Part shown: in pieces, positions 43,102-44,526 of the stretch
Position numbering within the stretch: position 1 is the stretch's first letter
How the letters are laid out: every line of letters begins with the position of its first letter
DNA from: Akkermansia muciniphila
GTDB taxonomy: Bacteria; Verrucomicrobiota; Verrucomicrobiia; Verrucomicrobiales; Akkermansiaceae
Assembly: GCF_040616545.1 (NCBI RefSeq)
Contig: NZ_CP156688.1
Coordinates: 1,116,001-1,180,000 of the forward strand
Length of the DNA stretch: 64,000 nucleotides
Direction: 5' to 3'
Made by a program: the position numbers and the translations under genes
The notes under the pieces: generated by a model
The model's input: the letters and a program-made list of their open reading frames with translations, nothing else
Told to the model about the DNA's origin: nothing
Databases searched by the model: none

Positions 43102-43179
43102 GACCCACATGTTGTGCCCCAGGAGCTTCCGTTTTAAAAGCCTGAAATGGGTAATGGAGTCAGATTCAACATGGATTTC

Positions 43180-43257
43180 TCTACTAAGTTCTAGTAAAAT
43201 TTTACTAGAACTTAGTAGAACTTGATAGAAAAGGATTGAAAGTTCTACTGAGTTCTA
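43180..43257. repeat. 40-bp perfect palindrome with iterated AGTTCTA motifs
   Basis: Positions 43180-43219 form a perfect inverted repeat of 40 bases centred at 43199/43200 (half-site TCTACTAAGTTCTAGTAAAA). Within 43187-43257 the 7-mer AGTTCTA occurs five times: plus at 43187, minus at 43206 and 43216, plus at 43241 and 43251. Two adjacent copies in each pair are exactly ten bases apart, one helical turn. It lies between argH and the divergent ATPase gene, 43 bases before the latter's start codon. It looks like an operator array or protein-assembly site; it lacks a T-tract. Confidence 0.85.
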
Positions 43258-43299
43258 CTTGAAATGTCTTAGAAGTATGTTTACCGTGGAAGGGTTATT

Positions 43300-44475
43300 A
43301 TGGATGAAATAAAAAATCCGTTTTCACCAGGCGCCGGCTCTCCTCCTCCCGAACTGGTCGGAAGGTCCGGAATTATCAGGCAAACGGAAGTTCTGTTGGG
43401 ACGTACTTTGAACAGGAAGCCGGAAAAGAGCATGCTCCTGACTGGCTTGAGAGGGGTAGGCAAGACAGTGCTGCTTAATGAAATGGAACGTTTGGCCCAG
43501 CGGCATGGATACCATACGATTTCAATTGAAGCGCATGAAAACAAATCTTTAGGCGCCTGCCTTGCCCCCTACTTGCGGAAGTTGTTTTTTGAATTCAATA
43601 GATTGGCCGGAGCAAGTGACAAGGTGAAGAAGGGGCTGATTGCACTTAGAAATTTCATTGGGACTATCAAAATTAATTATGGGGATTTTGGATTGGACCT
43701 GGACCCTTTACCGGGAGTAGCGGATAGCGGGGATCTTGAAAATGATTTGCCGGAGCTTTTTCAAGCCTTGTCGGAAGCCGCTTTGGAGAAGCAATCTGCC
43801 GTGGCTATACTTATTGATGAAATTCAATATTTCAAGGAGAAGGAGTTAAGCGCGCTTATCATGGCCATGCATAGAATTCAGCAGCGGCAGAGTCCAATCG
43901 TCCTGATGGGCGCCGGATTGCCCATTTTGCCGGGATTGGCCGGGGATTCCAAATCCTATGCCGAACGTTTATTCAGTTTTCCTGATGTGGGGGCTTTATC
44001 CCGGAAAGATGTCGCCCGCGCTTTACAGGAACCTGCCAGAAGAGAAGGCGCCGTATTCACGGATGAAGCCCTTGATAAAATATATAGGCTTACTCATGGG
44101 TATCCGTATTTTTTACAGGAATGGGGGTATCAGGCATGGAAGCAGGCGCAAACCGAACAGATTACATTGGATGTCATTAATCAGGCAACGGAGAAAGTGA
44201 TAGAGCGGCTGGATCAGAATTTTTTCCGGGTGAGGTTTAACCGGCTTACCCCCGGAGAGAAAAAATTCCTGAGGGCCATGGCAGAGTTAAGGTCGGAAAG
44301 AATGAGAGCGGGAGATATTGCACAGGTTTTGGGTATTACCGTGAACAAGATAGGCCCCAATAGAGCTCATTTAATGAAAAAGGGGATGATCTATAGTCCT
44401 TCATATGGAGAATTGGCATTTACGGTACCCTTATTTGGCGATTTCATGTTGAGAACCATTCCCGAAGAGCACTAG
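43300..44475 (+). CDS. AAA ATPase (ORC1/Cdc6-like AAA_16) with C-terminal winged helix
   Basis: A 391-residue cytoplasmic ATPase. The N-terminus (NPFSPGAGSPPPELVGRSG) leads to Walker A GLRGVGKT (residues 49-56). Walker B is ILIDEIQYF (Asp173/Glu174) and a sensor-1-like PIVLMGAGLP follows near 195. The lid shows the RLFSFPDVGALSRKDVARAL pattern. Residues about 320-391 look like a winged-helix domain (GDIAQVLGITVNKIGPNR). I recall similar proteins annotated only as 'ATP-binding protein' in many bacteria, often in variable regions. The start has a good ribosome site (GGAAGG). It is AT-richer than its neighbours. ATP-dependent DNA binding is inferred; function is unknown. Confidence 0.8.
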   Translation: MDEIKNPFSPGAGSPPPELVGRSGIIRQTEVLLGRTLNRKPEKSMLLTGLRGVGKTVLLNEMERLAQRHGYHTISIEAHENKSLGACLAPYLRKLFFEFNRLAGASDKVKKGLIALRNFIGTIKINYGDFGLDLDPLPGVADSGDLENDLPELFQALSEAALEKQSAVAILIDEIQYFKEKELSALIMAMHRIQQRQSPIVLMGAGLPILPGLAGDSKSYAERLFSFPDVGALSRKDVARALQEPARREGAVFTDEALDKIYRLTHGYPYFLQEWGYQAWKQAQTEQITLDVINQATEKVIERLDQNFFRVRFNRLTPGEKKFLRAMAELRSERMRAGDIAQVLGITVNKIGPNRAHLMKKGMIYSPSYGELAFTVPLFGDFMLRTIPEEH

Positions 44476-44526
44476 TAAATGGGGAGCTGGTTTAATTGAG
44501 TTTCATTAAAAGAAAGCAACGGCAGC

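Follow-up and report, generated by a model that had tools for sequence, protein, structure and literature searches.

Several described systems bear a partial resemblance to the locus reported here. Plasmid Rep proteins act on autoregulated operators, in which in-phase direct repeats and inverted repeats lie at the promoter of the binder's own gene. Orc1/Cdc6 proteins combine an AAA+ module with a winged helix and recognize origin recognition boxes that stand inverted beside their gene. To our knowledge, no phased operator array has been described for the archaeal MNS/ATPase_2 ATPases. STAND regulators, such as MalT and the mycobacterial IniR, undergo an ATPase-driven assembly on promoter DNA, IniR being a protein of 818 residues with a sensor domain and a different DNA-binding domain (PMC5760070).

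In a 64-kb stretch of Akkermansia muciniphila DNA, called the window below, an ATPase gene is preceded by repeat arrays that recall each of these systems in part. The arrays share with the Rep operators the in-phase direct and inverted repeats at the promoter of the adjoining gene, but the gene is mostly chromosomal and solo, no Rep protein accompanies it, and the family array is symmetric (3+3). As with Orc1/Cdc6, an AAA+ and winged-helix protein is encoded beside inverted boxes, whereas the units here measure about 10 bp, are phased and continuous, and cover the gene's own promoter, with no indication of an origin role. The ATPase domain is also related to that of the STAND regulators, although, unlike IniR, the protein has no separate sensor domain. 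The best full-length folds are those of the archaeal MNS/ATPase_2 ATPases PABY2304 of P. abyssi (2qen, Z 23.8) and SSO1545 of S. solfataricus (2fna, Z 23.3), both matched across 324 residues, yet their identity to the window ATPase is only 18%. We propose that the palindrome and its phased sites are probably a dedicated autoregulatory operator of this ATPase, which would assemble along one face of the helix.

Results

Two repeat arrays precede the ATPase gene

The features of the locus are the following.

43168–44525, no strand: foreign island of about 1.36 kb with the arrays and the ATPase gene, flanked by argH and a SWIM-domain gene
43179–43230, no strand: array A, layout 2+3, with left units CTCTA (43179–43183) and TTCTA (43189–43193), a 12-bp gap, and right units TAGAA (43206–43210, 43216–43220 and 43226–43230)
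43180–43219, no strand: perfect palindrome of 40 bp that forms the symmetric core of array A
43243–43274, no strand: array B, promoter-proximal, layout 2+1, with TTCTA (43243–43247 and 43253–43257), a 12-bp gap and TAGAA (43270–43274)
43259–43264, + strand: putative −35 box TTGAAA, which falls within the gap of array B, in a register shared with TTGAC(A/T) of other Akkermansia copies
43282–43287, + strand: putative −10 box TACCGT, after a 17-bp spacer and 12 bp before the start codon, a weak match to the consensus
43300–44475, + strand: ATPase of 391 aa, AAA+ (AAA_16/ATPase_2, ORC1/CDC6-like) with a lid and a C-terminal winged helix
44242–44466, + strand: winged-helix domain (residues ~315–389), putative reader of the units, AlphaFold2 pLDDT about 90 here

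A preliminary description of this DNA had reported a 40-bp palindrome overlapping five AGTTCTA sites set 10 bases apart within pairs, and these observations held in full. The palindrome is exact (arms 20+20, 100% match), and the second-longest perfect palindrome of the window measures 18 bp. AGTTCTA occurs in five exact copies, at 43187(+), 43206(−), 43216(−), 43241(+) and 43251(+), clustered here against a chance expectation of 1.94 for the whole window, and the 10-bp distance was found for both 43206/43216 and 43241/43251. Beyond that description, the core TAGAA yields seven exact sites and one near-site, which form two arrays with an identical inner gap (TTCTA-12 bp-TAGAA). TTCTA-N12-TAGAA has exactly two matches in the 3.06-Mb genome, arrays A and B; a looser third site of the same genome falls within a prophage.

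No RNA element came near its gathering score in an Rfam scan, and the DNA at 43170–43300 resembled phages at chance level only. A dispersed repeat (REP/MITE) is not supported, as the genome searches did not return many copies at unrelated sites. At the corresponding locus of genome G010 (L002), array A, upstream of the ATPase, has been enlarged by GGTAAGAAGA repeated in tandem, suggesting expansion and contraction of the array units.

The ATPase resembles archaeal MNS and ORC proteins

The protein is annotated in other genomes merely as an "ATP-binding protein". It scores 67 bits with the AAA_16 profile (cut-off 32.6), while its ATPase_2 match (E 7e-7) stays under the cut-off at 29.8 bits (33.2 needed) and its TIGR02928 (Orc1/Cdc6) score of 33.3 bits is far under the cut-off of 181.3. 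The winged-helix domain attributed to it earlier was borne out by a confident AlphaFold2 model (pLDDT 90.8) comprising an AAA+ domain, a lid and a winged helix. The nearest solved folds to this model (residues 6–385) are the two archaeal MNS ATPases named above, followed by archaeal ORC2 (A. pernix ORC2, Z 21), and the top Foldseek match is 2qby. It is a solo AAA+ protein of MNS/ORC-like type whose winged helix is C-terminal. Matches in PADLOC were weak, mostly partial and of the P-loop type (best mad8, E 3e-6), and those in PHROGs were likewise weak and of the P-loop type.

The array architecture is a trait of the ATPase family

Across 90 homologue loci, the 150 bp upstream of the start codon gave a mean self-similarity of 9.32 at lag 10, whereas dinucleotide shuffles gave 3.84 (z 46), and a lag-20 signal was likewise seen; no such signal was present 300–450 bp upstream or downstream. 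Aligned on its center, the family array has up to three 10-bp units NNNTA(T/G)AANT per side, inverted around a 6-bp spacer, and is typically centered 35–50 bp before the start codon (median 42; 37 for array B). With an architecture-specific score, 79 of the 106 loci lay at the shuffle floor and 88 had p ≤ 0.05. Under a strict core definition, arrays were present at 35 of the 106 ATPase promoters, whereas all 912 promoters belonging to other ORFs of these contigs lacked them. When 12 other genomes were searched in full, the best 4-unit match (0–2 mismatches) was the ATPase promoter in 11, as verified from the coordinates of the loci, and the other 4-unit matches carried 2–3 mismatches at the frequency of the controls. 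A Protochlamydia plasmid copy (L271) that did not enter model building shows the same 2+3 layout by eye, and about 15–25% of the loci, mostly deep branches, have no clear array. Our literature search of openly licensed papers found no description of this array.

We give almost no credence to chance AT-rich repeats or an ordinary hairpin or terminator as the source of this pattern. The sequence is indeed AT-rich and promoter-like, but the empty control promoters and the lag-10 z score stand against chance. As for an ordinary terminator, which the preliminary description had also dismissed, the T-run is missing 3′ of the palindrome and the upstream argH points away, so none is expected there.

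The preliminary description had also linked the ATPase to its own repeat, such that relatives with the gene and no such repeat would speak against the link. The exact AGTTCTA did prove special to G000 and G010. Most relatives, however, keep the geometry with another half-site, and the absence of AGTTCTA therefore does not refute the link to the ATPase.

In G004 (L073, G004:C1:1281124), the pair motif has a chance match inside what looks like a CRISPR array (repeat GTTTCAATCCACGCACTCGTGAGAGTGCGAC), in a spacer-like segment, and a 39-nt repeat occurs four times at 68–69 bp spacing close to an ATPase copy at L226:5838–6081.

The ATPase gene lies on a foreign island and has spread horizontally

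The island stands in place of ~120 bp of intergenic DNA found in genomes without it, and the GC content of the ATPase gene is 47%, versus 62% in both neighboring genes. The site is empty in G009, of the same species, as well as in G004, G008, G005, G006 and G007, and relatives of the ATPase are patchy in Akkermansia (14 of 76 genomes). In G010, a copy occupies the same location with a synonymous divergence of 0.61, compared with 0.22 for argH and 0.39 for the SWIM gene; this excess over the neighbors, together with a dN/dS of 0.03 (strong purifying selection), points to a protein that is under selection and whose transfer history is separate from theirs. The ATPase is 60–69% identical to proteins from many phyla; relatives were found on hundreds of genome contigs from these phyla (up to 69% identity), on 117 of 72,556 plasmids and on some viral contigs, the homologue loci numbering at least 583.

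Most copies are solo chromosomal genes beside varied housekeeping genes, and the survey of neighbors found no conserved partner gene, whether for replication or partition or as a transposase or recombinase. A few copies (among loci L105–L201) adjoin restriction-modification or MADS-like defense genes, most adjoining unrelated housekeeping genes. At L009, L012 and L007, different homologues adjoin guaB (IMP dehydrogenase, read by eye), upstream or downstream, and the guaB flank is a possible insertion hot spot for them.

The preliminary description had named iterons, parS-like clusters and an autoregulated operator as candidates. An operator linked to the ATPase is well supported by an array that lies at the promoter in most homologues tested and, in 11 of 12 genomes, at a single location; iterons and parS are not supported, given an array on the ATPase's own promoter and no replication or partition partner gene. 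We consider it highly improbable that the arrays serve replication or partition, with the ATPase as an Orc1/Cdc6-like initiator at ORB-like boxes or else as a factor in partition. The nearest folds do include ORC/Cdc6 proteins, archaeal origins also adjoin orc genes, and some copies are on plasmids, but these plasmids are very few, the array spans a promoter, and the genes are mostly solo and chromosomal, with varied neighbors and no replication partner.

Further arrays occur downstream of the gene and in prophages

Several relatives in Akkermansia from other hosts, rumen copies among them, carry further palindromes of 63–78 bp and of the same design downstream of the ATPase gene. In G028 (L223:4669–5394, G028:C11), the homologue is followed directly downstream by a palindromic unit of 76 bp that is repeated 9.6 times in tandem; elsewhere in that genome, a single copy of the unit was found, on contig C98. 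Such extra arrays could titrate the ATPase or aid recombination.

These arrays, the strong horizontal spread and the empty sites would all suit a role of the arrays as binding sites for mobility, that is, terminal repeats or recombination scars whose overlap with the promoter is secondary. We nevertheless regard this as unlikely: the window shows no target duplication and the island replaces ~120 bp, the downstream array is missing in most phyla, no transposase or recombinase partner exists, and the array keeps a fixed position before the start codon.

An array of the form TTCTAAC-TTCTA-12-(T/G)ATAAC precedes prophage lysis genes in seven genomes of the close group, six of which lack the ATPase.

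G000:C1:2793176–2793218 (L258, L083): prophage array
G004, G005, G007, G008, G009 and G012 (L253–L260, L265): prophage arrays
L266:3967–4002: array of the same design on a viral contig

The prophage arrays sit just before a muramidase, an amidase or a small ORF, their units being conserved while the 12-bp gap varies, and no ATPase relative turned up in those stretches of prophage that were read around similar arrays. The arrays may be remnants, may serve a phage regulator as its operator, or may be targeted by the ATPase.

Their presence in genomes without the ATPase speaks for another regulator, such as a phage or host factor, that would control the ATPase gene through the arrays, the ATPase itself not being the binder. 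This is decidedly unlikely, as the array accompanies the ATPase on plasmids and throughout many phyla, which would not be expected to have a host factor in common, and there is one array per genome. The prophage array also shares its design and nearly the same half-site with the ATPase promoter arrays. The ATPase could on this basis be a transmissible silencer that also binds the array before the lysis genes (TTCTAAC..TTCTA-12-TATAAC) and blocks phage lysis, with related arrays marking the promoters of other invaders, an idea that we consider very doubtful.

Half-sites vary while the geometry is constant

The half-site differs by branch (TAGAAC in the window and G010; TATAAC, CATAAAT and TATATT elsewhere) and the geometry is constant, as expected of a protein and a site that co-evolve. 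Unit distance among homologues tracks winged-helix distance beyond what the AAA domain accounts for (partial r 0.14, permutation s.d. 0.06), suggesting a positive but weak covariation of protein and site. The two top-ranking columns are residue 369, in the wing, and residue 346, where the recognition helix begins. A single-residue code linking Asn/Lys349 to TAGAA, resting on 5:1 independent pairs, at first seemed strong, but a scan showed that other columns share it, and residue 349 is at most a suggestive lead.

The array overlaps the promoter

A TTGA(C/A) box was found at 15 of the 16 Akkermansia loci, mostly 17 bp from a −10-like box and with an array unit within the spacer. In nearly all Akkermansia copies, the −35-type box (TTGAC(A/T) or TTGAAA) sits in the gap between the array arms. 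The −10 box, poor in the window, reads TACTAT in G010. Outside Akkermansia, sigma70 boxes showed no single fixed register.

In the proposed autoregulation, which we derive from sequence and fold, the winged helix of each ATPase protomer would read one 10-bp unit. Since the units recur every 10 bp, the protomers would stack on one face of the helix, two to three per arm, in an assembly depending on the nucleotide state. In Akkermansia, both the −35 box and the −35/−10 spacer fall under the array, so that RNA polymerase would be shut out once the ATPase is bound and the ATPase would repress its own gene. Binding at array B would place a protein across the core promoter, which makes autorepression the likely simplest mechanism, activation by the ATPase being less likely.

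Discussion

Autorepression of this kind would keep the amount of ATPase safe whenever its gene is transferred horizontally to a new host. For these phylum-spanning ATPases, known only by their "ATP-binding protein" label, a fixed DNA target across the family would give a first testable function together with a ready assay. The constant geometry and changing half-sites further provide dozens of natural protein–site pairs for the reading of DNA by AAA+ winged-helix proteins, and such pairs also bear on helical-phase assembly in the bacterial relatives of ORC/Cdc6 and STAND proteins.
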